Assembly: GCA_025499625.1 (NCBI GenBank)
Contig: JAFMVD010000045.1
Location: forward strand, 1 to 49,113
Direction of reading: 5' to 3'
Origin: Carboxylicivirga fragile
Lineage (GTDB): Bacteria; Bacteroidota; Bacteroidia; Bacteroidales; Marinilabiliaceae
Length of the DNA stretch: 49,113 nucleotides
Part shown: positions 930 to 38,500 of the stretch, in pieces
How the letters are laid out: each line of letters starts with the position of its first letter
How positions within the stretch are numbered: position 1 is the first letter of the stretch
Program-made: the position numbers and the translations under genes
The notes under the pieces: model-generated
What the model was told of the DNA's origin: nothing
Seen by the model: only the letters and a program-made list of their open reading frames with translations
Database searches by the model: none

Positions 930-1688
930 TTATGAGCGCAATGCTTCCAATACGGATTCGCGTCGCATACGCGAAAGACTAATTTGCGTACCATCTTTCA
1001 TTACCAAGTAACCACCTTCGGTTTTTTCGTAGGATTGAATTTCGCTAATATTCACAAGGTGTGATTGATGCACTCTAATAAAACCTTCGTCTGCCAGTAA
1101 GTCTTCAAATTCTTTGAGGGTGCGCGACACCAATTGTTTTTGCCCCGAACGAAGATAAACCTGTGTGTAATTACTCTCACTTTTACATCGAATAATATCA
1201 GAGGTATCTACAAATAATAGGCGTTCGGCAGAGGGGAGGGCAATGCGTTTGTGTTGGTTTTGCTTATTGATTTTAAATGTTTCAATTTGTTCTTCGGTAT
1301 CTAGTCTGTTTTTACGGATTTTGTCAATTACTCTGTTGCAGGCATGTTGAAGTTCTAGCGTATTGATTGGTTTTAGAAGATAGTCGAACGCACAAAAGCG
1401 AATGGCTTTAATGGCAAACTGATCGTAGGCTGTTACAAATATGACTTCGAAGTTACGCTCTTTAATGGAGCTGAGTAAATCAAATCCACTTCCTGCTGGC
1501 ATTTGAATGTCAAGAAAAACAAGTTGGGGCTTAGTTTGATCTATCAGATTAAGTCCATCCGTTGCATTACATGCCATGCCAAGCACATTAATGTTGCCAC
1601 AGTACTTGCTTAGTAAATTATTCAGATGATCACGATTGTTTTTTTCATCATCAATTACAATTGCACTTATTTGCTCACTTTTACTCAT
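930..1688 (-). CDS. LytTR-family response regulator
   Basis: A 252-residue two-domain regulator. The N-terminal receiver has the acidic pair DDE near residues 12-14, the phosphoacceptor Asp in VFLDIQMP (about D60), and the conserved Thr and Lys in FVTAYDQFAIKA and LLKPI. The C-terminal LytTR DNA-binding domain (about 145-250) contains RLLFVDTSDIIRCKSESNYT and FIRVHQSHLVNI. The start is taken at 1688 (MSKSEQ), not the longer frame to 1712, because that ATG overlaps the stop of the kinase gene by 8 bases (ATGAGTAA), a typical coupled junction. Its partner is therefore the LytS-type kinase just upstream in transcription. Target promoters cannot be read from the window. Confidence 0.93.
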   Translation of the reverse strand: MSKSEQISAIVIDDEKNNRDHLNNLLSKYCGNINVLGMACNATDGLNLIDQTKPQLVFLDIQMPAGSGFDLLSSIKERNFEVIFVTAYDQFAIKAIRFCAFDYLLKPINTLELQHACNRVIDKIRKNRLDTEEQIETFKINKQNQHKRIALPSAERLLFVDTSDIIRCKSESNYTQVYLRSGQKQLVSRTLKEFEDLLADEGFIRVHQSHLVNISEIQSYEKTEGGYLVMKDGTQISLSRMRRESVLEALRS

Positions 1689-4674
1689 GTTCAAGTTCGT
1701 ATAATAGTTCAACTAATGTACCATTTTCTGCTGGCTCTAAAGTTTGTTTATTGCTAATGTTTAAGTCAATTTCCATTTTGTAAGTATCCCGTAGTACTTC
1801 CAAGCGTTTCTTCGATAAAGAAATGCCTTTGCCCAATTTTAAACTGTTCTCATCCAGAGAAAATCCTTTACCATTATCCTCAATGCTACACTTTAAGCAA
1901 TGCTTATCTTTTTTAAATTTCACCGTGATGTTGCCTTGTTTTCCTAGTGCAGGAATGCCATGAATAACGGCGTTCTCCACAAATGGTTGTATTAATAACC
2001 CTGGTATTTCAATGTTATTGATATCAAGTAGAGGGTCGCATTCAATGGTATACTGAAAATTGAAACGCAAGGCTTCTAATCGCAAATAGGTATCAATACT
2101 TTTAATTTCATCGTTGAGAGGAATAAGTAGGTGCTCCGAGTTGTTTAGTACTTGTCGCATCAATCCTGAAAATTCGGCAATGTATTGACTGGCTTCTTCG
2201 TTACGCTCATCGCTCACTAAATGCTGTATCGAGTTAAGTGTATTAAACATGAAATGGGGATTGAGTTGAGAGCGTATTGCTCTCAACTCCAATTGTACTT
2301 TTTCACGCTTTTGCGCTTCTTCTTTTTTTAGTTTTTTATTGCGATAGTTGAAATACAACCAAAGAATGAATCCTGCCAAAGCAAAGCCACCAAGCCACCA
2401 GAAAAAATTAGATAAATCACTTTTAGCTTCAAATGATTTGGCTTTGTTTTTAATGTAGATATCCAATTTTGTGGCGTATTGCCCCATTGATTCCAAGGAG
2501 TATTTAGTATTTCCTCTCATTGTTTTACCATCCCATATAACATCAAAGTTGCCATTTGGATTGATTAGAAACGCCGATTTAGCAATGGTGGCTTTGTAAT
2601 TTTGCGTTGCAGTGTTTTGCCAATTTTCATTAATGAGTAAGGGGCCTGAGTAAATTTCTCTAATAGACCGAAGTTTTGTTTTGTCCCACTCTTTGTTGGT
2701 TGCAACCACAACAGTTTCAAAATTTTCTGCTTGAACAGAGTCGCGCATTGCTTGCATTAATTTCAACTGGTGTAAATCATACTCATCTTCGGTTTCAGCA
2801 AATAATAGATATACCCACTTACCTTTGAAATCACTCAATGACACAAGGCGACTATTATCGTTCCTTAAACTAAAGTCTGGGGCTTCCTTACCTTGTTGAA
2901 TACTGGCATTATTGCCTAATTTATTAGCAAATATTTTGGACATCTCTGAGTAAGGAAATTCTTTGGATAAGTCGCTAAGCATGTCCTTTGCATCTTCAAT
3001 TTGACCTTTTTGAATAGCTGTGTGCAGGTTTTGTGACATGCTATAATAACGCATTTCATCCTTGAGTGATAGTTTAGATAAATCAAAGAAGACTTTTTCA
3101 TCTGAATGGTTCGATCTGTGTATCCCTAATACTTCTTTTTGGTGGAGTAAGTATGAGCGGATCTCTCCACGCATTTGATTACTTACATAATTGCAGTGTT
3201 GCAACAATTTGTTATCTGTAAAACGTTCTTTGTAAATTTTCTTATTAGCATTAGTCGTTCCGGTACGGACTCTTACTCTTTCGGTTGTCCAACTAATTGG
3301 CGCTGTCATAGCTGTTCCGAAAAAGATTTCTGCCTTAAAATAATTCTTGGCAGATATAGAAAATGTTTGGTTTTTAAGTTTACCTAGTAAATGATCCGTT
3401 GTGATATTTATGTTACTTATATAATCTTCATCGCTAGTGATATTTAGTTTTCCAATTTTTCGAGACTCACCCTTTAGCATTTCGGCGAATGCGAATTTGG
3501 CTGCTGAAGAACCCTTAAAAGTCCATTTTTTGTCAGCTGAATTAATTGATACATTAATAGAATCACCTGGTTCAATGAATAAATTTTCGGCAAATGAGTT
3601 TTCGTTTCCAATTTCACCTAGACGAATTGTCAGCTCCATTGGCCGGTGAAGTGCAAATGCTAGGTCAAAGCTGCCATCTTCTTTTATTTGTGCACTTACT
3701 TTTTTAAAGCACTCGCTATCGGCATATCGTTTTTGAACATAAACACTGATTTGTCGCAAATTATTAGGTGCAATTTTACCCTTTATTGAAACTTTGGGAA
3801 CCTTTTTAATACTATTAAGATCTACAAAATGTGTTTCGCTTACTCCTGCTTTTAATACTGAAAGACTTAATCCTTTTGTTTTCGAAATAGTATAAATAGG
3901 TTTTGTTTCCCCAAGTAAGTACTTGTCCTCGTTAAAAAGCGCACCTTGTATGAAACGACCTTTATCTTTTGAGAAAAATATAGTGTCAATCACATTACTA
4001 TCTCTTCGAAATAATTGACCATCTCGATACACACGTAATGTTTCATTTGTTCTAAATGGTATTATCTTAGGTTGATAGCTTAGCTTGATTTTTTTATTAT
4101 CAATTTTTTTTATGTCTATATGATCCTTTAGAGGAGGGAAGGCTTGCTGAATAATTACCTTGAATGGCTGAGATGCAAAAGCAATTGGATTGTAGTTGAC
4201 GTAGAATTCATTAAAATTTTTGGAGTGTAATTCATTGATAATGCCTTGGTATATTTCTTCTATGCCTTCAAGGTTTGATACAGTTCCATCCTTATCTACC
4301 CATATTTTAAAAGGTTTATCCAGCATTTGTGTCAGGGTGTATTCACTTTTAAAAAGTGGTGAGTTGTTATACTTACTATCGTAACAGCGGTTGAAACGCC
4401 ACCTTGTAAACCGTTTGATTTCAACATTCAGTTCAAATAAATCACCTCTTTTTCCGTGTGGTTTAAAAAGAAAGTAAAAATCCAGTGAGAATGGATTAAG
4501 GTCGTTCCAGTAATAGTGATTATAACCTTCTTCTTGAAAATGTCGGCCGTAGTTACGAACCATTACAACAAACTCGTCGCCTTGTTTAAAATCATACTTT
4601 AAATTGTCGGGAGGAGCTGCGTAGGAGCTACTTGAAATAATAAGAATGCTTAGTGCAAAAAATAATTTTCTCAT
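1681..4674 (-). CDS. LytS-type sensor histidine kinase with a TlpA/redoxin-like ectodomain
   Basis: A 997-residue sensor. Order: signal peptide (1-19); unassigned beta-rich region (about 20-290); a segment like the N-terminal domain of Bacteroidota TlpA lipoproteins (about 293-400, ending in IEPGDSINVSI and FKGSSAAKFAF); an alpha-helical linker; a thioredoxin/redoxin-like domain (about 595-735) opening GKEAPDFSLRN and containing KSAFLINPNGNFDVIWDG; one membrane helix (about 752-775); then a His_kinase domain with QLNPHFMFNTLNS (phospho-His about 807) and ATPase motifs NAVIHG and DNGKGFSL. Where active TlpA proteins have WCxxC the sequence reads FAETEDEYDL, so there is no redox cysteine pair and the domain is probably a binding or sensing relic. 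It overlaps and presumably phosphorylates the LytTR regulator. Kinase call is firm; the ectodomain call rests on motif resemblance. Confidence 0.9.
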   Translation of the reverse strand: MRKLFFALSILIISSSSYAAPPDNLKYDFKQGDEFVVMVRNYGRHFQEEGYNHYYWNDLNPFSLDFYFLFKPHGKRGDLFELNVEIKRFTRWRFNRCYDSKYNNSPLFKSEYTLTQMLDKPFKIWVDKDGTVSNLEGIEEIYQGIINELHSKNFNEFYVNYNPIAFASQPFKVIIQQAFPPLKDHIDIKKIDNKKIKLSYQPKIIPFRTNETLRVYRDGQLFRRDSNVIDTIFFSKDKGRFIQGALFNEDKYLLGETKPIYTISKTKGLSLSVLKAGVSETHFVDLNSIKKVPKVSIKGKIAPNNLRQISVYVQKRYADSECFKKVSAQIKEDGSFDLAFALHRPMELTIRLGEIGNENSFAENLFIEPGDSINVSINSADKKWTFKGSSAAKFAFAEMLKGESRKIGKLNITSDEDYISNINITTDHLLGKLKNQTFSISAKNYFKAEIFFGTAMTAPISWTTERVRVRTGTTNANKKIYKERFTDNKLLQHCNYVSNQMRGEIRSYLLHQKEVLGIHRSNHSDEKVFFDLSKLSLKDEMRYYSMSQNLHTAIQKGQIEDAKDMLSDLSKEFPYSEMSKIFANKLGNNASIQQGKEAPDFSLRNDNSRLVSLSDFKGKWVYLLFAETEDEYDLHQLKLMQAMRDSVQAENFETVVVATNKEWDKTKLRSIREIYSGPLLINENWQNTATQNYKATIAKSAFLINPNGNFDVIWDGKTMRGNTKYSLESMGQYATKLDIYIKNKAKSFEAKSDLSNFFWWLGGFALAGFILWLYFNYRNKKLKKEEAQKREKVQLELRAIRSQLNPHFMFNTLNSIQHLVSDERNEEASQYIAEFSGLMRQVLNNSEHLLIPLNDEIKSIDTYLRLEALRFNFQYTIECDPLLDINNIEIPGLLIQPFVENAVIHGIPALGKQGNITVKFKKDKHCLKCSIEDNGKGFSLDENSLKLGKGISLSKKRLEVLRDTYKMEIDLNISNKQTLEPAENGTLVELLYELEHE

Positions 4675-8551: not shown

Positions 8552-8609
8552 ACAAATCTTTTCAGGCGAAAAGCTAAACGGTTTGAATACAAAACTTGTT
8601 TTATGGAGC

Positions 8610-8662
8610 AAAAATAAGGAGCGGCTCTTTGTTTTTGATTTGAAATACAGAGCCGCTCCTTA
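8610..8662 (-). terminator. Rho-independent terminator of the M56-ExbD-M23 gene
   Basis: Perfect 14-bp stem: TAAGGAGCGGCTCT (8615-8628) pairs with AGAGCCGCTCCTTA (8649-8662) around a 20-base loop. It starts four bases after the stop codon and is followed on the minus strand by ATTTTT. It also separates this transcript from uvrA. Confidence 0.88.
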
Positions 8663-8665
8663 ATA

Positions 8666-10480
8666 TTATTTTATGTATTTATCAGGATCAACATATTCCC
8701 CATCTTTCTTTAACTCAAAATGCAAATGTGGTCCCGTTGATTGCCCTGTTGAACCAACAAAGGCCACATGGTCGCCTTGCTTTACCTTTTGCCCTTCTTT
8801 CACATTGTACGCGTTAAGCTGGGCATACAAGGATGAAAAACCGTTTTCATGATCGATAATGATGTATTTACCATAACCTTTACCTGGTTTGTGATCCAGT
8901 TGAATCTTGCGCACAGTACCATCAGCAATGGCAACTACTTTTGTATTTAGTTCGGCTTTGTAATCAATGCCTCGATGCATCATCTTTTCTTTCTTGATAG
9001 GATGCATGCGCATACCATAGCCAGAACTAATTTCATACTTTTCATTTTTGTTAATTGGCTTGATAAATGAGCCAACTGATTTTTTATGAAAGTTAATATC
9101 CTTTGGTTCGTTGAAACTTATTCTACGAGGATGTAATTGCACGATAGCTTCTTTTTGAGCTCCATTGCAGGCCGAAAAATCCTTGCCAAAGTACCTTTTG
9201 GCCGAGTTGTCTCTAACATCGCTGTATGCACCCACAACTTCTTTAAGTAGATCATTGGCCGCTTCATTTGGCGTTGCGACATCGCGCTGTAAGCTAATAA
9301 CTCCAACGTTGACTTTTATATCACCTAGTAAATCAATGTTCTTTTTGATTTTTTCTGGATAAGTGTTGTTATTACTTAAGAAATCAATAACGGCAGGTTT
9401 TACCATATCTATTGTTGCAATTTCACCTTCCATGAGCATAATGCCAGTGGAATTTATTAGAACGGTAAAGACATTGCCGGCTTCTATTGCTCCATTGTTT
9501 AATAAAGCCTCATTTGATCCTTCAAATAACTGGCTTGCCTCTGCCTTATTAATTGGCCAATCCGTTGTTATTGATAAATTGTTTGAAATTGATTGCTTTA
9601 TATAGTCCGTACTTGAAAGTCCAATAATTAAAATACCAAGAGCTATTGGGATAATTAATAATGCTCTCTTTAATGGATTTGATTTATGTGTTGACATTTG
9701 TATTCGTTTTTTAATGAGTTTGTATGAGAAAGGACTCATTAGAGGCGAATAGTTTTGTTGACCCGCTTGCTGTAGAACAATATCAAAGTAATCGTGCTTC
9801 GAAGTATTGGCGTCTACGGCATCGCTATCGGCCTGAAATTCATGAACCTCTTCAATGGCCTTTCGGTATAAATATAAAAATGGATTCATCCAGAAGACGA
9901 TAAGCATTAATTCAATAAAAACTCTGTCAAAAGAGTGTCGGTGTTTGATGTGACTTAATTCATGATTAATGATTTTTTCGTTTTGCGACGAATGCCAAAC
10001 ATCTTGGGAAATGAAGATATAACGAAAGAAAGAAAAGGTGTTTTGGTGATTAAATAACACCAGGATGTAATTACTAAAATTTAGTTTTTCATGTGCTCGT
10101 ATGGTTTTATTAAGTTGTATGAGGTGTTTTAAAAATCTGAAAAATAAGATTGATGAAATCAATGCAAGAGCCCACCATCTATAGTTGTTTGAAATAGGAG
10201 AGGTAGTGCTTGTAGTTTGCTCAACTGTTGGTAACTCCTCGAAGAAAGTAAATTGATTAACACTCTCTTGAATATTTGGAATAATAGTCCATGCTACCGG
10301 ATCATCTACTATAAATGATACATTAATGAATGGGAATGTATAGGCAAAAATTAAGGTACCTAATAGGTAAAATCGATTAAGTGAAAAGAACGAAAGCTTC
10401 CGCAATGCCACGTAGTAGATCAGGAAAAATAAGCCTGATACCAAGGTGGTTTTAATCAAGTATGGTAGAATGCTCATCAT
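8666..10480 (-). CDS. M56 (BlaR1-like) metalloprotease fused to ExbD/TolR-like and M23 peptidase domains
   Basis: A 604-residue inner-membrane protein. The N-terminal half has membrane helices (about 8-25, 38-55, 103-118, 187-205) and the M56 zinc site HELSH at 173-177 with a later Glu in EEVHEFQAD; in BlaR1/MecR1 this protease signals to the cognate repressor. After a further helix (about 272-292), residues about 330-460 resemble the periplasmic part of Bacteroidota ExbD/TolR proteins (VLINSTGIMLMEGE, LLGDIKVNVGVISLQ, VVGAYSDVRDNSAKRYFGK, RRISFNEPKD). Residues about 478-604 form an M23/LytM peptidase with GYGMRMHP, MHRGIDYKA, and HLHFEL, so zinc ligands look intact. The start overlaps the BlaI-type gene stop as ATGA. 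Inference: a cell-wall-stress sensor/effector. The M56 and M23 calls are firm; the ExbD call is from pattern recall. Confidence 0.9.
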   Translation of the reverse strand: MMSILPYLIKTTLVSGLFFLIYYVALRKLSFFSLNRFYLLGTLIFAYTFPFINVSFIVDDPVAWTIIPNIQESVNQFTFFEELPTVEQTTSTTSPISNNYRWWALALISSILFFRFLKHLIQLNKTIRAHEKLNFSNYILVLFNHQNTFSFFRYIFISQDVWHSSQNEKIINHELSHIKHRHSFDRVFIELMLIVFWMNPFLYLYRKAIEEVHEFQADSDAVDANTSKHDYFDIVLQQAGQQNYSPLMSPFSYKLIKKRIQMSTHKSNPLKRALLIIPIALGILIIGLSSTDYIKQSISNNLSITTDWPINKAEASQLFEGSNEALLNNGAIEAGNVFTVLINSTGIMLMEGEIATIDMVKPAVIDFLSNNNTYPEKIKKNIDLLGDIKVNVGVISLQRDVATPNEAANDLLKEVVGAYSDVRDNSAKRYFGKDFSACNGAQKEAIVQLHPRRISFNEPKDINFHKKSVGSFIKPINKNEKYEISSGYGMRMHPIKKEKMMHRGIDYKAELNTKVVAIADGTVRKIQLDHKPGKGYGKYIIIDHENGFSSLYAQLNAYNVKEGQKVKQGDHVAFVGSTGQSTGPHLHFELKKDGEYVDPDKYIK

Positions 10481-10851
10481 GATTGTTTCTTTTCTATTTC
10501 TTGATTAATCAACTTCTTGAGTTCTTCTAATTCAGATAATGAGAGATCACTTTCTTTTGTGAAAAAAGAAGCAAATTGCTTTTGTGAATTATTGAAAAGG
10601 TTCTTAACCATGGTGCTCATATACTTTTTCGAATAATCCTCTTTTTTAATTAATGAGTAGTATTCGTTCACTTTTCCATAAGTATTAAAGGCAATGGCTC
10701 CTTTTTTAACCAATACACGAACCACCGTTGAAACCGTGGTGTATGCTGGTTTAGGTTCTGGATATTGTTCGACAATGTCCTTTAAGAATCCTTTTTTAAT
10801 TTTCCACAAGTACTGCATTACTTGCTCTTCTGCTTTCGTTAATTCAATCAT
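10477..10851 (-). CDS. BlaI/MecI/CopY-family transcriptional repressor
   Basis: A 124-residue winged-helix repressor: ELTKAEEQVMQYLWKIKKGF leads into the HTH (FLKDIVEQYP, AYTTVSTVVRVLVKKGAI), then a beta wing (NEYYSLIKKEDY) and a helical dimerisation tail. In this family, proteolysis triggered by an M56 partner relieves repression; here that partner overlaps by 4 bases. The frame is open to 10899, but the -7 and -33 elements (10869-10899) lie inside that extension, so the ATG at 10851 is chosen. Palindromes at 10879-10892 and 10919-10932 indicate autoregulation. The family is confidently recognised; the inducing signal is unknown. Confidence 0.93.
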   Translation of the reverse strand: MIELTKAEEQVMQYLWKIKKGFLKDIVEQYPEPKPAYTTVSTVVRVLVKKGAIAFNTYGKVNEYYSLIKKEDYSKKYMSTMVKNLFNNSQKQFASFFTKESDLSLSELEELKKLINQEIEKKQS

Positions 10852-10868: not shown

Positions 10869-10899
10869 CAAATATATAACTATAAAAATAGTCGTGCAA
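10869..10899 (-). promoter_or_regulatory. Promoter of the BlaI / M56 operon
   Basis: TTG (10899-10897), a 20-base spacer and TATATTTG (10876-10869) on the minus strand match the Bacteroidota promoter exactly. The ATG at 10851 lies 17 bases after the -7 box. A palindrome fills most of the spacer, so a bound repressor would block sigma factor contact directly. Confidence 0.8.
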
Positions 10900-10934
10900 T
10901 TATTTTAATAGTTTTATTACTATTTTTATAGTTA
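10877..10934. promoter_or_regulatory. Twin palindromic operators for the BlaI-type repressor
   Basis: The 16-base arms at 10877-10892 (TAACTATAAAAATAGT) and 10919-10934 are perfect inverted copies. Each core is itself a dyad, ACTAT-N4-ATAGT (10879-10892 and 10919-10932), with centres 40 bp apart, near four helical turns. The first lies between -33 and -7, the second just upstream of -33. A looser ATAGT-N6-ACTAT lies between them. Dimeric BlaI-type repressors bind dyads of this size; the assignment to this repressor is inferred. Confidence 0.72.
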
Positions 10935-11060: not shown

Positions 11061-12038
11061 CTAACTAGCCACTTTTGTCGAATCTTCTTTAATACTTGAC
11101 TTTGGCTTAAGTACCGCGTTGTGTGGTAATTTTACCGTATAAGTCTTTTTTGAGGCATTTGTTAAGTTGGCCTCTCTTAACCATGGATTTAGATCCTTTA
11201 GCTCCTTATAGGTGATGTTATGCTCTATTGCAAAATCAGGGAAACTACTCACGGCTCCTTTTATTTCGTGATTCTTTGTTTTGAGCTCATCATACAAATC
11301 AGCTTCTTTAACATGAAATCCGTATGCATCCGGATTGGAAAGGATTTCTTTGATAGCTATAATGCGATAAACATAGCGACCTGTTTCCTCATTGAGTAGA
11401 AGGTCGAAGTAGTTATCTGCTTTCTGACGACTTAGCTGGCGGTTAACACCAGTACGACCGGCATTATAGGCAGCAGCGGCTAATGTCCAACTGCCATAGT
11501 GAGCATGCATTTTCTTTAAATATTTACAGGCTGCTTCTGTTGATTTTTCGATATGGTAGCGTTCATCAATTTCCTTTGAAACCTCTAAGCCATATTCTTT
11601 GCCAGTAGCTTTCATGAATTGCCATAATCCAACAGCACCCGCTGGCGATTTGGCTCTTGGCATCAAGTTACTTTCAATTAACGATAAGTATTTGAAGTCG
11701 TCAGGTACACCGTTGGCTTTTAATATTGGTTCTATTATCGGAAAATAACGATTAGCTCGTTTTATAAATAATACAGTTTGCGATTGCCAATAAGTATTAA
11801 CCAATAACTCACGGTCGAAACTTTCCTTCACATCATAACGGTCGATGGGTACTTGTTCGTTGGCGAAAGTTAAGTCTGAAGGTATATCTAATGAGAAAAT
11901 GGCATACTTACCAACTTCTTTGTTTGTGCTTGCCGTTCTATCCGGAGTAGCCGAAAATGTAAATAATTGAAATGCCAATATAACTGCTATAAAGAGGCTT
12001 GAAATCGATAGTAGTTTAGTATAAAAATTCACCTTCAT
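11061..12038 (-). CDS. Membrane-anchored lytic murein transglycosylase (SLT / MltD-like)
   Basis: A 325-residue cell-wall enzyme that would cleave the MurNAc-GlcNAc bond of peptidoglycan in the periplasm. Residues about 10-28 form a signal/membrane anchor. The SLT domain (about 105-225) shows YLSLIESNLMPRAKSP with the catalytic Glu in LIES, GAVGLWQFM, and AAAAYNAGRTGVNR. Near the C-terminus, FAIEHNITYKELKDLNPWLR looks like a LysM-type motif, as in MltD proteins. The frame is open to 12113, but a complete promoter (12072-12101) lies inside that stretch, so the ATG at 12038 before KVNFYTKLLSI is preferred. Next to the BlaI/M56-M23 operon it adds to a cell-wall remodelling group, though it has its own promoter and terminator. 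Confidence 0.92.
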   Translation of the reverse strand: MKVNFYTKLLSISSLFIAVILAFQLFTFSATPDRTASTNKEVGKYAIFSLDIPSDLTFANEQVPIDRYDVKESFDRELLVNTYWQSQTVLFIKRANRYFPIIEPILKANGVPDDFKYLSLIESNLMPRAKSPAGAVGLWQFMKATGKEYGLEVSKEIDERYHIEKSTEAACKYLKKMHAHYGSWTLAAAAYNAGRTGVNRQLSRQKADNYFDLLLNEETGRYVYRIIAIKEILSNPDAYGFHVKEADLYDELKTKNHEIKGAVSSFPDFAIEHNITYKELKDLNPWLREANLTNASKKTYTVKLPHNAVLKPKSSIKEDSTKVAS

Positions 12039-12071
12039 AATCTTCCCGTTTTCTTGTTTGTTTGAGCGCAC

Positions 12072-12101
12072 CAAAAATACTTTTTCGACCAAAGAATCCA
12101 A
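12072..12101 (-). promoter_or_regulatory. Promoter of the lytic transglycosylase gene
   Basis: TTTG with its TTG at 12101-12099, 19 bases, then TATTTTTG (12079-12072) on the minus strand. This fits the Bacteroidota consensus and places a leader of roughly 30 bases before the ATG at 12038. Confidence 0.72.
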
Positions 12102-12252
12102 AAAATGTGCCAATAAATAATGTATGAAAATAGTACGGCTAAAATGTAAAAATGTTCATGAATTGATGACTTCTTTTTCGACTATCTTGAGAATTGATGA
12201 TTTTGAATTCACGATTAATATTAGTAAGTTACAGGTATAAAGGAGTTCGCAC

Positions 12253-14189: not shown

Positions 14190-16814
14190 ATGAATGATAG
14201 AATAAATATGGAGCACCTAATTAAGCACAACTTTGAGCCCTTGGTTATATTTAAGCGATCGGGGTATGCTGTTGAATTAATTAATGACAGTGCAACAAGT
14301 TTATTCAATTTGCAATCCCTGGATAAGAATGAAATTCGTTTACGTCATTTTTGTAACCGAGCCGACTTATTTAATGAGAAAGCTGCAATTAGATTGTTAA
14401 GTACGTTAGAATTAGGTGAAAAAAAGGACTTTGATTGGCCTGTTCGCTTAGGTAATACGCATTGGTTGTTGGCTTACCTTAATGTATACGAAGATAAGGG
14501 TGAGGAATATATACTTGTAACTTTTCGAGACAATACTATAGGAAAAGAAAGCTTATTACGGCTTAACAATATGGTTGCCTTTCGTGAGGTGCTGGATAAT
14601 TTATTATCAGCTAATACCATTGTAGCACCTGATGAAATCCCAACTTTGATCGATAAATCATTATTGGTTGTTGGGCAATTTTTTAATTGTGATCGAAGTT
14701 ATGTATTTCAGTTTTCAGAGGATTTACAACTTCATTCCAATATTAATGAATGGTGTGCCAATGGAATAACACCATATATTGATGAACTTCAGGATATCCC
14801 TATTCGCAAATTTCCATATTTAGCTGATCATTTCCTTAGGAATGAAACGGTTTGTTTAAACGATGTTTCAGAACTGCCATTGGAAGCTAAAAACGAACGA
14901 GAGGAGTTTGCAAAGGAAGGTATTCAATCAATACTATTAATTCCTTTTAGTGAAGGAGAGAAGAGGATTGGTTTTGTTGGGATTGATCATGTTAGATCAA
15001 GTAAGGCGTGGACAGCTAGTGAGGTTTCAAACCTTAAACTGTTAGCAAGAGCTTTTGCAAATATGTTACTTCGACTAAAGAAGGAGAAGGAGCTAAAGGA
15101 GCAGCATAACATGTACCAAACCTTATTTATGGCAGCAAACGATTCAATTGCCATATTTAGAAATGGTATCTGTTTGGATGCTAATCCAAAAACATTGAAT
15201 GATTTTAAATGCTCGCGTGACTTTTTCGTTGGGAAAAGCCTTGTCGAATTATCATCGCATAATCAAGTCGAAGGAAAATCACCTTCCTATATCAATGTTT
15301 TTCAACAAGAAGCTCTAAATGGACATCCTCAAATGTTTGAGTGGGTACTTAAACGAGGTGATGGCTCTGAAATAGAGGCGGAAATAAGTTTAAATAAGTT
15401 TTCAAATAAAGGGGAGTCCCATACCATTGCTATTTTTAGAGATATAACCGAACAGAACCAAGCGGTTAAGCTTTTGTTTGAAACGAAAGATTATAAAAAG
15501 ACAGAATCTCAGTTGTTAAATTTAAATGTCGATCTTGAGTTAACCATCCTTGATCTGTTTGATATTAAACAATTACAAAACCTTCAGGATGCTTTTGCTT
15601 ATGCTACTGGCGTATCCTCATTAATTACTGACTTGGAAGGTTATCCAATTACTGATGTTTCATTCACAAATGAGATATGCAAACTCGTTAGGGCTACTGA
15701 TGATGGTAAGCACATGTGTATTGAGAGCGGTAAGATGTTGGGTAAACTAGCAAAAGAGCAACGAAAGCCTATTTCTCGTCCGTGCTTGTCATGTGGTTTT
15801 ATCGATGCAGCTGCTCCAATTATTGTTGATGGTAATCACATTGGGAATTGGATAATTGGGCAGGTTAGACCAAGCGATTTAAATGTTGATAAGCTGCTGG
15901 AATATACAAGAAGGTTAAATATAAATGATGATGGCGTTATCGCTGGCTTTGAAAAATTGGTTGATTTAGCTCCAGAACGCTTTACTAAAATATTAAACCT
16001 GCTTAATGTTCTTACCAACGAACTTTCGATACTTGGTTACAACAACTTAAAATTAGCCAAATCAGTACAGAATCATTTATCTCTGGAGCGTAAATTATTA
16101 TTATCGAAACAACGTGCCGAGGAAAGTGACCGACTTAAGTCGGCATTCTTGGCAAACCTATCACATGAGATTCGTACCCCAATGAATGGGATAGTAGGAT
16201 TTTCGGAGTTACTTCAGTTCGAAGGGTTAACGCCTGCTGATAGGAGAGAGTATGTTCGATTGATACACCAAAGTTCAAGTCAGTTATTAAATATTATCAA
16301 TGATATTATTGATATATCTAAAATAGAATCGGGTCAGATAGATATTCATTCAAGTTATTTTGATGTGATTGAATTGATGGAGAATCAAGAGGCATTTTTC
16401 ATTGACTCAGCTAAAGCCAAGGAGATTGATTTAATTTTTAATTCTGATGACCTTACTGAATTAGAAATGTTCTCCGATGAGGGTAAATTGCGTCAGGTAT
16501 TAACAAACTTAATTTCAAATGCCATCAAATTTACTGCACAAGGAAGTGTTGAGTTTGGTTATGAGTTGATGGATGGTAATTTAATTGAGTTATTTGTGCA
16601 AGATTCAGGAACCGGAATAGATGCAGATAATGTTCATTTCATATTTGACCGTTTCTGGCAAGCCAAAGATTCGGATGTGAAGAAGGGAGGCACAGGTTTA
16701 GGATTAGCAATTACTAAAGCCTATGTTGAGTTATTGGGTGGTCATATCAATGTAAAATCAAAGCTTAACGAGGGTACACGATTTAGCTTTGTAATACCGC
16801 GAACATTGAATTAA
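14190..16814 (+). CDS. Cytoplasmic PAS-GAF-PAS-PocR sensor histidine kinase
   Basis: An 874-residue kinase without membrane helices. Seen in order: a PAS-like segment (about 8-125); GAF (about 140-295, FNCDRSYVFQF, RIGFVGIDHV); coiled coil; PAS (about 310-430, ending IAIFRDITEQNQA); a PocR-type ligand domain (about 448-630) with LQNLQDAFAYATG and a Cys-rich stretch including KHMCIESGK and RPCLSCGFIDAAAP; HisKA with FLANLSHEIRTPMNGI (phospho-His about 659); and HATPase_c with NLISNAIKFT, DSGTGI and GGTGLGLAIT. PocR domains sense small organic molecules in propanediol and related regulators; the cysteine cluster could also bind a metal. No receiver domain or neighbouring response regulator. Likely paralogous in its kinase half to the preceding gene. 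Confidence 0.9.
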   Translation: MNDRINMEHLIKHNFEPLVIFKRSGYAVELINDSATSLFNLQSLDKNEIRLRHFCNRADLFNEKAAIRLLSTLELGEKKDFDWPVRLGNTHWLLAYLNVYEDKGEEYILVTFRDNTIGKESLLRLNNMVAFREVLDNLLSANTIVAPDEIPTLIDKSLLVVGQFFNCDRSYVFQFSEDLQLHSNINEWCANGITPYIDELQDIPIRKFPYLADHFLRNETVCLNDVSELPLEAKNEREEFAKEGIQSILLIPFSEGEKRIGFVGIDHVRSSKAWTASEVSNLKLLARAFANMLLRLKKEKELKEQHNMYQTLFMAANDSIAIFRNGICLDANPKTLNDFKCSRDFFVGKSLVELSSHNQVEGKSPSYINVFQQEALNGHPQMFEWVLKRGDGSEIEAEISLNKFSNKGESHTIAIFRDITEQNQAVKLLFETKDYKKTESQLLNLNVDLELTILDLFDIKQLQNLQDAFAYATGVSSLITDLEGYPITDVSFTNEICKLVRATDDGKHMCIESGKMLGKLAKEQRKPISRPCLSCGFIDAAAPIIVDGNHIGNWIIGQVRPSDLNVDKLLEYTRRLNINDDGVIAGFEKLVDLAPERFTKILNLLNVLTNELSILGYNNLKLAKSVQNHLSLERKLLLSKQRAEESDRLKSAFLANLSHEIRTPMNGIVGFSELLQFEGLTPADRREYVRLIHQSSSQLLNIINDIIDISKIESGQIDIHSSYFDVIELMENQEAFFIDSAKAKEIDLIFNSDDLTELEMFSDEGKLRQVLTNLISNAIKFTAQGSVEFGYELMDGNLIELFVQDSGTGIDADNVHFIFDRFWQAKDSDVKKGGTGLGLAITKAYVELLGGHINVKSKLNEGTRFSFVIPRTLN

Positions 16815-32556: not shown

Positions 32557-35500
32557 ATGAACTACTTTACAAAGTATAAATTGAGTGTCGCAATTGTTTT
32601 CCTACTAGGTTTATTAGGAATGCAAAGTAATGCTCAAACTCTCCAGCAATATGAAAACGGTGTCCTAAAAGGTGCCATAAAGGTTAAGCTTAGACCTGAG
32701 GTGGTGGTTAGTCCGCAAGGTTTAAAATCTTTTTCTGTGGATGGTATTGCCAAAGTGGGAGTAACTGCCATTGATAAGTTAAATGTTGAGCATAAGGTTA
32801 ATAAGATGGAGCGGGTATTCCCCTATTCGCCCAAATTTGAGACGCGCCATCAAAAACATGGTTTGCATTTATGGTACCGAATAGAGATAGAAGATGATCA
32901 GGATATAAAAGAATTGGTGAAGTCTTATAGTCATGTCAGTGATATTGACGTGGCAGAACCATACTATGAAAAGCAATTGGTCCCATATTCTATTACGCAT
33001 ATGGATGAAGCTACTGCTGCAGCAATGAAATCAACGCAAACTTTGCCTTTTAATGATCCCATTTTAATTGACCAATGGCATTACAATAATACAGGTGACG
33101 GCGATGTTACTGAAGGTGCCGATATTAATCTCTATAAGGCTTGGGAAACGCAGGCGGGACAATCCAATGTGATTGTTTCTGTACACGATGAAGGTATTCA
33201 ATACGATCACGAGGATTTGCTCGCCAATATGTGGGTTAATGAAGCTGAGCTTTATGGTACAGAAGGTGTTGACGATGATGGGAATGGTTATGTCGATGAT
33301 GTTTATGGTTTTAATTTTACATCAGGGACAGGAGATTTTGTGGCTGCGGACCACGGAACCCATGTTGCAGGGACGGTTGCTGCTGTTAATAATAATGGTA
33401 TTGGTGTAGCTGGCGTAGCTGGCGGCACTGGAGCTGGCGATGGCGTTCGAATTATGGGCTGCCAAATTATTGGGGGAGACCAGTATCCTGATATAGCTGG
33501 TTCATTTGTGTATGCTGCCGATATGGGAGCTGTTATCTCACAAAATTCTTGGGGATGGCAAACCGATGGTGATTATGAACAATCCGTTTTGGACGCCATT
33601 GATTATTTTATTGAAGAGGCTGGAAATTATCCTGGTAGCCCAATGAAGGGTGGTGTCGCCATTTTTGCTGCCGGAAATAATGGCAGTAGTGGATTACATT
33701 ATCCGGCTGCTTATGAACCTACTGTGGCTGTTGGCGCAACAGGTCCAACAAATTTAATGACCGATTACTCCAATTATGGAACCTATATTGATATCACAGC
33801 CCCAGGTGGAGAAAATGCATTTGGGACTGAATTCGGTGTTCTGAGTACAATAAATTACGATGGATACGCCTACCTGGATGGCACATCAATGGCATGTCCG
33901 CACGTTTCAGGTGTGGCTGCTCTTATTGTTTCGGAACATGGAGGTGATGACTTTACGGTTGATGACTTAAAGGTTCATTTGCTAGGTGGAACGAATGTTT
34001 TGGATACATTACCTGGGAATGCTGAACGATTTGGTATGATGGGATTAGGTGGTACAGATGCCGAACTAGCTTTACGCTTAAACAATGGTATTCCTCCTAA
34101 TGTTATTGATGATTTAGAATTGAAGGGTATTTCTCAGGATTTTGCCAGTTTAAAATGGACGGTACCTGTTGATGAAGATGACGATAAAGCTTCATTTTTT
34201 GAAATATATTATTCCACAGTTGATTTTGATGAATCAAATATTGATTTGGCCGCAAAAGTGCTAGTTAAAAATAATAACCAAGCTGGTCATGAGTTTTCTT
34301 ATGAACTAGGTGGTTTAGAGGCTACAAGCGAATATTATTTTTCGGTAAAAGGCTTAGATCGATGGGGAAACGCCAGTGCGTTATCAAATAAAGTAGTTGG
34401 TACTACTAATGAGGGACCTGAAGTTGCCTATTCAGTGCCGGAAATAACTTTTAATATCGATGTTACTCAAGGAGCAGATGCAACGACCAATTTTGACTTA
34501 CTTAACGTTGGTGAAGGTGTACTAAAATGGGAAGTTTCTGAACGTCACATAAAAAATACGGATACGTATTCTGTTGAGGCCTTTAATTACCCGCTTGTAA
34601 ACTCTGCCTCAAAACTTCCAGAATTGCGATCAGCACCTATCGATACCTATGCTAGTTCGATAGTGCCGTATGCACAAAAACCAGTTGAAAATGATGATTT
34701 ATATTATTTTCACCCTGATTATTTATCCGCTTCGATGGTGACTGTTGGAGATGTTGATCTTCAGTATACCAATTCAATGGCAACACGTTTTGAGTTAACT
34801 CGTGAACAAGGTTTTAATATGACTCACTTTGAATTTGCCTTGAATCTTCCCAATTATCCAGATACGCCATTGGATGGACCCGTTATTTTGGAATTGTATG
34901 AAGGCATTGAAATGGAAAGTGCTAAACGAATATATGCTCAGGAGTATGTTCCTGAAGCAGAGACCATATGGCATTTTGTAGAAATGACCGAACAAGTGTT
35001 TTTCGAGAGTGGTGATGTATTTTTTATGGTTATACATGTTCCTGCTAATAATCGTTATCCCTTAATGGCTTCGTGGGGTTACTATTCAGACTTTACAGAT
35101 TTTCAGTTTTACAGTAATAATATGGGACAAACGTGGGATAATCTCGGTGAGGTGTTTAGTCCTGATTATGTCTGGGATGTAGCGGCTTGGAGTCGTTACG
35201 AACCACTTGAAACGTACCTTAAGTTATCTCCAAGAGAAGGTGTCGTTCAGGCCAATTCTGGTCAGGATATTCAGGTCGATCTTGATGCATCCAAATTAAT
35301 TAATGGTGATTACCAGGCAACGCTTTCTTTCCTTACCAATGAAACAGGTAAAGAAATTAATCATTTACCGGTTAATTTTACCGTAACTGGTAATAAGCCA
35401 ATACTCGAAAGTGAAAATGTACTTGAATTTGGAAATGTTTTTGTTGGCGAATCAACAGCAACAAGCATTGAAATTTCAAACAGTGGATTAGGTGCGTTTG

Positions 35501-38500
35501 CAGGTAACTCAACAATAGATGTGCAGATATCAAATCCTGATTTCCAGTTAACTCATAATGAACCTAGTATTATATATGCCCAGCGTAGCCAGACTTTATC
35601 ATTCCGTTATTGGCCAAAAGTTGCAGGCGCAAGTAATTCCTTGGTAACCTTAACCGATAAGGATGGGAACCAATATAAATTTAATTTATTTGGAGTAGGT
35701 ACTAATCCGCCGGTTGCAACAGTGGAACCAGCAGAGAATACCTTCTCTGATTTAAATTTAGGCGATGTGGTGAATGGATCGTTTACATTAAGAAATGATG
35801 GAGAATATCCATTAAAATACTATGTGCCGAAATTTGCTGATGGATCTAATTTGAATGGAAATAATACAGGACTGGTTCACCTTTTTGGTTATGCGGCAGG
35901 ACAAGTTGAAGGTGATGAAACTACTAATGCATTTGACTGGGTTGATATTTCTTCAACTGGTATTGAGGTAGGGCAACAGTTTGCTAGCAATGCTAAAACA
36001 ACATATATAGATGTACCTATTGGTTTTGACTTTCCATTTTTTGAGGAAAAGGAAGATACGGTATATATAACAAAACAAGGAGCATTAAGCTTTACTACCG
36101 ATGGTTGGTTTAATTCTCAACCAGTTATGTATGGTAATTCAACACAAGCCAGTAAACTAATATGTGCCTACGGATTGGAAATGGATCTATCCAAGGGTGG
36201 TGCTATTTATTATCAGAAGTATCCGGATAGGATTGTGGTACAATACGATAAGATTCCAGCGGAATATTTGAATGAAGAATATGCCCTGCAATACACCAAT
36301 GTCACTTTCCAAATCATCCTATTAATTAGTGGTGATATTGAAATTAATTATAAAGATTTAGGAACAATACCTTATGGCAAAAGTGCTTTGGGTTATCGTA
36401 CTTCTATGCAAGTATCCATTTTTGATGAAGGATTGAATGATGGCATATTGCTGAATGGGTTTATTTCTCCTGATATTGATAATGGTGGAGCTTTTGAAAG
36501 TCGATTAATATCTGACATGCCACCAACAACCGGGTATATGATGTATTTCCGTTATCCAGGTCTTGGTTCGGTGCAAAGTGTGACCAATCCATTTGGAACA
36601 TTACAAGTGGGAGAAAGTGTGCAGTTGGATTATGTGGTTGACACAAAAGATCTGTTTGTAGATGATTTTGTAGAGCGTATCAATGTGATTAGTAATGATC
36701 CGGTGACCAATCCTGCTGTGCATAGTATTAATTTGAATATTGTTTCTGGTGGTGATGTTGATTATCAGTATAATGTTGAAACGATAGAATTTGGGAATGT
36801 TTTTCAACGTGATGTTGTAATAAAAACCTTCGCCATTAGTAATGTTGGTAAAGCCATTGGAACAATTGAAAGCATCAGCTTCCAGAATGGAAACTACACA
36901 GCTGAAGGCTATTTACCTGTTGAGTTAAAACCAAACTCAAGGGTAGAGTACATCATCACCATCAATAGTGATGAGATAGGTAATAAAGACGATGTATTGA
37001 TATTTACAGATAAACTTGGAAATACCTATCAAATTCCTGTCCATGGCAATGTAGTTGAAGCTCCAATAATATCCACTTCGATAAATGAATTGAGCGAAAC
37101 ATTGAATTTTGGGTCTAGTAAATCTTCTGTGTTATCTATTGATAATACAGGTAAAAACCCAATGAAAATCTCACCTGTTGGAAATGAGTGGCTATCAATT
37201 GTTGAGCAAGGCTACGCGGGTCAGACAGAAAATGTGGATTATCATGTCACCTTTGAAGAAATAGCTGGTTCAAGTTATGATAATTGGATAGATATTAGAG
37301 AAACCGGAAAGCGACTTGATCCGGGAGATATGTACGAAACAGATAAATTTTGGAGAGTAGAGAAATTACCATTTGAGTTCCCATTCTATGGCAACTTGCA
37401 AGATTCTGTTTATATTGGGTTTAATGGAATTATCATGTTTGAAAAAACAGATGAAGCCTTAACTTTTGGACCTCAAGATTTAATTCCAAGTGAAGACGCT
37501 CCCGATAATTTTATCGCACCCCTTTGGGGGCCTATAGGCCCGGCATGGTTAGAGATATATCCAACCACAGGGACTTACTATCAGGAATTTGATGACAAGG
37601 TAGTGATTCAATTTCAGGAATATGAGAATTTATTTGGCATGGGACATCCTGTCTCTTTTGAGCTAGTACTGTATGCCAATGGAAACATCAAATTTATGTA
37701 CTACTTCCCATGGGAGGAAGCAACAACACAATGGTGTGTTGCGGGTATTGAAAATCCTGATGGCACTATCGGTCATGCGCCCTCACAATTTGTAGCTAAT
37801 CTTATTAAGGATGGTTCGGTGATCACATTTGTTCCTGTTGAAGAATACGAGATAGACGCTAATTCAAGTAAGAGTTTTGAATTGACCTACGATGCAAGAA
37901 GCGTCTATGGTGGTGCTTATCAGGAAGATTTACTTTTAACAAATAACACACCTGATGCCCCTGATTATGCTCTGCCGGTAACAATGACAGTTATTGGAAA
38001 TAAAAAGATAGAACTACGAGATAGTTTGAAACTAGGCGAGGTTTTTATTTATGATGAGGTGAATGAAGAAGATAATTCGACATCAGCCAGAGTTTATGAT
38101 ATGAACTTCACACTTGCCAATATAGGTACTGAGAAGATCTTTATCACACGAATGCGCTTACAGGAACGAGCAAGCGGTTTAACTGTTATGGGCGATCAGG
38201 ATAAATATGGAACGTCTGGCGCTGAAGATCCATGGGTTGATCTTTCTCGTAAGAACTTAAATACCTATTTAAAACCTGAGAATAGCGAGACTTTTAATCT
38301 GAGAGTTAAGGCGACAATGCCAGAGAGCATAGTAGACACCGTTGTGGTATACTGCGACCTTGAGGGGGGCTTGTATAAGATTCCTGTTTCAGCATCTTAC
38401 ACCAATCCACCAGTGGTGAATATTCAGTCCGAAGGTCTTGAGATATTTACGAATAGCGAGGATGAAATTATTAACGAGTCTGTTGTATTGGATAATATAA

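Follow-up and report, generated by a model that had tools for sequence, protein, structure and literature searches.

A BlaI-paired M56 protease with a wall-enzyme ectodomain as a candidate peptidoglycan sensor in Carboxylicivirga fragile

A two-gene operon in the marine Bacteroidota species Carboxylicivirga fragile pairs a BlaI-type repressor with a membrane protein that joins a BlaR1-like M56 protease to an ExbD-like domain and a terminal M23 domain, and we read this pair, at about even confidence, as a BlaR1-type receptor-protease in which a wall-enzyme ectodomain that senses peptidoglycan stands in for the penicillin sensor. The operon lies in a 49,113-nucleotide stretch of contig JAFMVD010000045.1, which we call the window. 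The reading draws on the anatomy of the genes, their homologies and pairing, a conserved array of promoter dyads and a loop motif that tracks the M23 domain.

Anatomy of the BlaI–M56 operon

The BlaI gene comes first and the M56 gene second, both on the minus strand and overlapping by 4 bases, and the M56 gene is followed by a hairpin (fold −25.8 kcal/mol, z −6.57) that is missing from the output of a separate promoter scan. Because this hairpin closes the M56 gene, the transcription unit would most simply comprise the BlaI and M56 genes only, and the downstream uvrA is an unlikely member of the operon. The features of the operon and its promoter are as follows:

10919–10932 (no strand assigned): operator-like dyad farthest from the gene, an exact ACTATW4ATAGT
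10899–10912 (no strand assigned): middle operator-like dyad, one mismatch
10879–10892 (no strand assigned): operator-like dyad nearest the gene, exact, between TTG (10897–10899) and TATATTTG (10869–10876)
10477–10851 (minus strand): BlaI/MecI-type repressor, 124 aa, with a Penicillinase_R domain (Pfam PF03965, 98.1 bits, above cut-off), alignable with MecI/BlaI crystal structures
8666–10480 (minus strand): M56–ExbD-like–M23 membrane protein, 604 aa, in one open frame; eight other genomes have the same three-part frame
10184–10327 (minus strand): loop between predicted membrane helices 2 and 3, residues 52–99, with NQFTF at 10244–10258, positioned as EL1 of BlaR1
9689–10090 (minus strand): M56 protease domain, residues 131–264, with HExxH at 9950–9964
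9587–9676 (minus strand): last predicted membrane helix, residues 269–298, from the structure model
9083–9487 (minus strand): ExbD/TolR-like periplasmic domain, residues 332–466
8669–9073 (minus strand): terminal M23 domain, residues 470–604, in which Gln554 (codon 8819–8821) replaces a catalytic His
8605–8662 (minus strand): terminator-like hairpin 3′ of the M56 gene, with a 14-bp stem, a 20-base loop and five T

The three-part M56, ExbD-like and M23 architecture of the original prediction was borne out by sequence, by fold and by its recurrence in nine genomes. M56 (41 bits, residues 155–262) and M23 (113.4 bits, residues 501–599) both match the 604-aa protein above their Pfam cut-offs; the PF03965 match and the overlapping frames confirm the BlaI-type partner, and the M23 and ExbD-like parts support an ectodomain related to the wall. 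A check for split genes detected no frame break, and fusion of two genes by a sequencing error is ruled out because nine genomes share the uninterrupted frame.

In a structure comparison of the model, residues 4–255, the N-terminal part, adopt the BlaR1 fold, and HExxH, E214 and D218 recur without exception across a diverse set of M56 proteins (60 of 60). With the BlaR1/MecR1 and BlaI/MecI systems of S. aureus and B. licheniformis the operon shares an M56 domain in which HExxH is followed by acidic residues, the membrane and protease fold, predicted helices with a helix 2–3 loop, a C-terminal ectodomain and a BlaI/MecI-type repressor in the operon. The repressor is distant from the four matched MecI/BlaI chains (21 to 44 bits). 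Counted by hand, its Phe97 aligns with Phe102 of staphylococcal BlaI, the P1′ residue at the cleavage site of that protein (PMC3305447, PMC9834060), and in this region the P1′ Phe is kept and P1 is Phe in place of Asn. Where BlaR1 and MecR1 have a penicillin-binding domain, M23 stands here, with or without ExbD: no penicillin-binding sensor domain matched the 604-aa protein in Pfam at E 1 or better, and the two-gene operon contains no beta-lactamase, PBP or resistance gene. Because it lacks a penicillin sensor, the system, judged by its sequence, is not a BlaR1, although it is BlaR1-like by anatomy.

Relatives, ectodomain parts and the NQFxF loop

Genomes of the family (71 searched) encode at least 16 M56 proteins that end in M23, nine with ExbD (the window and L006–L013), four with an empty slot (L015, L016, L017 and L020) and three that carry a further M23 there (L014, L018 and L019), and a BlaI gene precedes each of these 16. 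The L016 protein (G009, of the window's genus) is identical to that of L035 from Carboxylicivirga sp. A043 (Marinilabiliaceae, Bacteroidota). Searches of 393 order and 395 phylum genomes scored 3 candidates per genome; among the matches listed for the order were M56–M23 proteins in four genomes from one other genus (L057, L058, L059 and L061), an M56-x-M23 protein without ExbD (L056) and an M56–Amidase_3–M23 protein (L060). With an ExbD-like profile, the only frames over 600 aa among the matches listed for the 393 order genomes were those of the window and G047. Among the matches listed for the 395 phylum genomes, the window's protein alone was full-length. No M56–ExbD–M23 protein from outside the window's own family is among the matches listed for these order and phylum genomes, and in a plasmid search no place covered 80% of the query. 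The L060 gene (1123–3438, minus strand) encodes 771 aa with M56, Amidase_3 (108.8 bits) and M23 all above Pfam cut-offs. L056 (229–3210, plus strand) holds tandem M56–M23 genes, the first M23 stripped of most metal ligands and the second complete; BlaI was not found there, in a locus with merely 228 bases before the first gene.

M56 proteins of the Bacteroidota carry other ectodomains on the same core. In 60 M56 proteins, a biased set made up mostly of best query matches in the order and phylum genomes, we counted TonB_C in 31, ExbD in 3, Amidase_3 in 3, M23 in 3 (including the window's protein) and GldM in 2; two proteins (L072:850–2529 and L075:928–2427, both minus strand) have C-terminal GldM third and fourth domains. 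A BlaI gene lies directly upstream in 49 of the 60. Among the remaining 11, the locus extends less than 200 bases upstream in four, and in two BlaI is slightly farther away. By domain match, the TonB_C, ExbD, GldM, Amidase_3 and M23 ectodomains are relatives of envelope machine parts.

The middle segment of the window protein, checked by sequence and by fold, matches ExbD: it is related to the periplasmic domain of the genome's own ExbD (36% identity) and shares its fold and a C-terminal extension found in that protein. It differs from ExbD/TolR in that their own helix with an acidic residue is missing, the core of the preceding helix being free of acidic residues in 9 of 9 proteins (by eye), and in that no ExbB/TolQ gene adjoins the operon, whose neighbours encode UvrA and an MltD-like enzyme. 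PF02472 gave no Pfam match on this segment at E 1 or better, an ExbD-like profile searched against PDB sequences returned a single unrelated match (E 0.43), and ExbD is missing from the fold list of the whole protein, where absence is uninformative according to the tool; a separate model of the domain shows ExbD.

Relatives vary at this position. ExbD is present in 9 and absent from 14 of the 23 M56–M23 proteins on the tree; of the 15 rows in the clade that includes the window's protein, 9 have ExbD and 6 lack it. On a 28-row M56 tree the ExbD label requires six changes (gains or losses), at least three of them forced by well-supported branches; shuffled labels averaged 7.9 changes, and as 46 of 500 shuffles were as good as the real label, it clusters weakly. 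The M56 parts of L008, with ExbD, and L017, without it, are identical at 273 of 295 aligned residues. Given this near-identity and the variable slot, ExbD is on present comparisons an exchangeable insert, and BlaI, M56 and the terminal M23 form the constant core. ExbD had been put forward as a defining third part; it is present in the window's protein but optional within the clade, some members of which have nothing in the slot and others another M23.

Several other ExbD-like proteins came to light. On contig C79 of the window's own genome, L002 (373–2370, minus strand) encodes an M56 protein without M23 and apparently with two C-terminal ExbD-like copies, the last of which matches the genome's own ExbD (BLASTP 2e-9; profile match at 460–536); one ExbD profile fell short of E 1e-3, whereas BLASTP and another profile detected ExbD. 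Fusions of M56 to ExbD that exceed the Pfam cut-off also occur in the same phylum outside the window's class (L145:35–1441, plus strand; L155:727–2502, minus strand), and such fusions therefore arose or spread more widely. Contig C22 of the same genome as the window encodes a 257-aa ExbD-like protein (L047:1066–1839, minus strand; PF02472 38.7 bits), by eye a lipoprotein.

The terminal domain has the M23 fold and the zinc ligands HxxxD and HxH, as do the M23 endopeptidases LytM, ShyA and MepM, but it is fused behind a membrane protease and has Gln554 at the column of LytM H260, an essential His; the other His (His585) is kept. Both H260 and H291 of LytM are called essential (PMC5519744). Among 30 fused M23 domains the H260 column holds Gln in 20, His in 8, Met in 1 and Asn in 1, compared with His in 15 and Asn in 1 of 16 unfused domains, which comprise best query matches and four own-genome M23 proteins and are not a fair sample. 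The terminal M23 domains of close relatives (24, counting the truncated L037 and omitting L056 and L060) have Gln in 20, Met in 1 and His in 3 (L011, L013 and L057), and in each of three tandem-M23 proteins the first M23 has His and the second Gln. In 29 of 30 fused domains the zinc ligands are intact, as is the other His; among the unfused, L137 is without one zinc ligand and L139 without the other His.

Because Gln mostly replaces the catalytic His, one part of the earlier proposal, that the ectodomain binds and cuts peptidoglycan, is weakened: cutting is doubtful, with Gln in 7 of 9 ExbD-bearing proteins against His in 15 of 16 unfused domains. The terminal M23 probably does not work as an ordinary enzyme and is likelier to bind peptidoglycan than to cut it, although a Gln-type M23 might still hydrolyse slowly. 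The relay to BlaI in that proposal is a prediction by homology, and peptidoglycan binding of the TolR type would be putative for the ExbD-like domain. Fused enzymes are not always disabled, given His in 3 of 24 terminal domains, His in the first M23 of tandem proteins and three M56–Amidase_3 fusions that by eye keep their presumed catalytic residues.

The loop at about residues 52–99 is variable, and NQFxF is its main constant feature. Of the M56 proteins that end in M23, 21 of 25 have this motif whether or not they contain ExbD, compared with 0 of 57 that end otherwise; a looser N.F.F is found in 23 of 25 versus 2 of 57. The 25 proteins omit duplicates of identical sequence, L037, which is truncated, and the first L056 gene, which is degenerate. 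As 22 of them fall in two tree clades (15 and 7) they are not independent, and common ancestry may account for some of the pattern. In BlaR1, EL1 (residues 56–96) occupies the active site of the sensor, from which beta-lactam excludes it (PMC9834060), and by analogy the NQFxF loop may contact M23 as EL1 does the BlaR1 sensor; with a pLDDT under 50 for the loop, the model does not predict this contact.

Promoter dyads and the search for targets

Three ACTAT-W4-ATAGT dyads start at 10879, 10899 and 10919, a spacing of exactly 20 bp. The window holds four matches with at most one mismatch against 0.34 expected, a number reached in 0 of 100 shuffles; the fourth, at 294, lies away from the operon promoter. 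All 15 aligned promoters of relatives have three dyads at 20-bp spacing, with 0–1 mismatches in the nearest, 1–3 in the middle and 0–3 in the farthest. TTG and TATATTTG flank the nearest dyad in a way that we take to fit Bacteroidota −33/−7 boxes; a promoter scan was unhelpful (14 sigma-70-like sites versus 11.2 expected). We infer that BlaI binds the three dyads as candidate operators, and three operators, OP1–OP3, are likewise reported for the bla region of B. licheniformis (PMC3305447).

Genome-wide, the exact dyad occurs at 4 sites, equal to the reversed control (4): two here, one 5′ of another blaI–M56 pair (L001) and one, at C54:19995, within an open frame that runs for 1004 aa or more, which was rejected as a regulon site and read as chance. 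When the dyad was combined with the −7 box and up to two mismatches were allowed, 18 genomes yielded 22 sites versus 3 for the reversed control. Fifteen of these lie directly upstream of the operon with 0–1 mismatch, one per operon-bearing genome (15/15; compared by hand). Two more fall on a second dyad in one of these promoters, and three precede other blaI–M56 pairs (L128–L130). The last two, L131 (one mismatch) and L134 (two mismatches) of G030, have no assigned target, nor does an own-genome C59 site with two mismatches. Three genomes without the operon contain zero sites. The pattern was derived from these very promoters, so the matches at the operon are partly circular, and the absence elsewhere is informative. 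Besides paralogous blaI–M56 pairs, no shared operator-bearing target was found in the 18 genomes, in which degenerate sites could escape, and on this pattern the unit seems to regulate mainly itself.

Neighbouring genes differ among relatives, and because none is constant, no adjacent gene was retained as a regulon member. An MltD-like lytic transglycosylase gene lies directly upstream of the operon on the same strand in the window (11061–12113, minus strand) and, by eye, in L007, L008, L009 and L017; a divergent gene like the window kinase at 14190–16814 (by eye) takes this place in L006, L010, L014, L015, L016 and L018, and other genes do so elsewhere. The window further encodes a 997-aa protein with AhpC/TSA and His_kinase (PF06580) domains (1681–4674, minus strand) and a 2551-aa open frame (32557–40212, plus strand).

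A peptidoglycan receptor and its alternatives

These features suggest a working model, in which we infer the ligand, the direction of the signal, the loss of hydrolysis by M23 and the cleavage of BlaI. At rest, BlaI would sit on the three dyads at 20-bp spacing and repress the operon. The periplasmic M23 would be a receptor that recognises stem peptides or cross-links of peptidoglycan and not a good hydrolase, with the ExbD-like domain, if present, providing dimerisation or an extra contact to the wall or a partner. The helix 2–3 loop with NQFxF would touch M23, as EL1 does in BlaR1, and be displaced upon ligand binding, whereupon the cytosolic M56 site would cleave BlaI and derepress the operon. 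Because no other conserved target was found, the output would be either the membrane protein or the action of its protease on additional substrates. Another wall-hydrolase ectodomain, Amidase_3, is likewise fused to M56 in 3 of 60 proteins. Against a receptor stands the failure to find any target outside the operon, which would be unusual for one.

That same result favours a serious but unlikely alternative, in which M23 works as an endopeptidase, if perhaps slowly, and one protein both senses and acts: a wall hydrolase tethered to the membrane, its abundance controlled through its own protease–repressor loop. Intact zinc ligands and His585, the His-type domains of L011, L013, L057 and the first M23 of tandem proteins, and amidase fusions that appear intact by eye all fit this account, but Gln554 occupies the position of an essential His. 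It is improbable that wall turnover fragments act straight on BlaI while the membrane protein merely generates or gates them. A wall-acting ectodomain would suit such a role, and the dipeptide gamma-D-Glu-m-A2pm acts in this way on B. licheniformis BlaI, binding BlaI/MecI and freeing the operator, but with affinities in the millimolar range (PMC3305447), and the BlaI encoded here is distant from MecI/BlaI chains. We regard as highly doubtful a third account, in which sensing falls mainly to the ExbD-like domain, which would monitor an ExbB/TolQ-type motor or TonB-like partners: the kinship of this domain with the periplasmic domain of the genome's own ExbD and the ExbD, TonB_C and GldM domains on other M56 proteins speak for it, but ExbD is missing from most M56–M23 proteins on the tree (14 of 23) and from 6 of 15 in the window's clade, and the loop motif follows M23, not ExbD. 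A regulator of beta-lactam resistance, as BlaI/BlaR1 homology might suggest, is scarcely credible for a two-gene operon with no penicillin-binding sensor in Pfam at E 1 or better, no resistance gene and no further shared operator-bearing target.

The combination of M56 and M23 is already in print, and the literature that we searched offered no mechanism for it. A review of M23 proteins names M56 among the extra catalytic domains found with M23, in under 1% of hits, and states that M56 has yet to be shown to take part in cleaving peptidoglycan (PMC9662197). Its single BlaR passage is background only, and a word search of its main text returned no ExbD, TolR or sensor. Literature searches, whose coverage mostly excluded subscription papers, returned no account of M56–ExbD–M23 or M56–M23 as a sensor.

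To our knowledge, how Bacteroidota sense wall damage is largely open, and the system described here probably lets the bacterium monitor the condition of its own wall. As a case for testing it is compact, with two genes behind a single promoter, one loop motif, and ectodomains that occur naturally in Gln-type and His-type forms. The sensor of BlaR1 resembles a disabled beta-lactamase, and we suggest tentatively, at well under even confidence, that the Bacteroidota have made of the BlaR1 chassis a general envelope-surveillance receptor fitted with spare copies of the parts that it monitors, namely TonB, ExbD, GldM, amidase or M23 domains; in this branch a disabled M23 and an NQFxF latch would form a direct, antibiotic-independent sensor of peptidoglycan cross-linking. 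The BlaI–M56 pairs of Bacteroidota, named for drug resistance, may be receptors for envelope machines.
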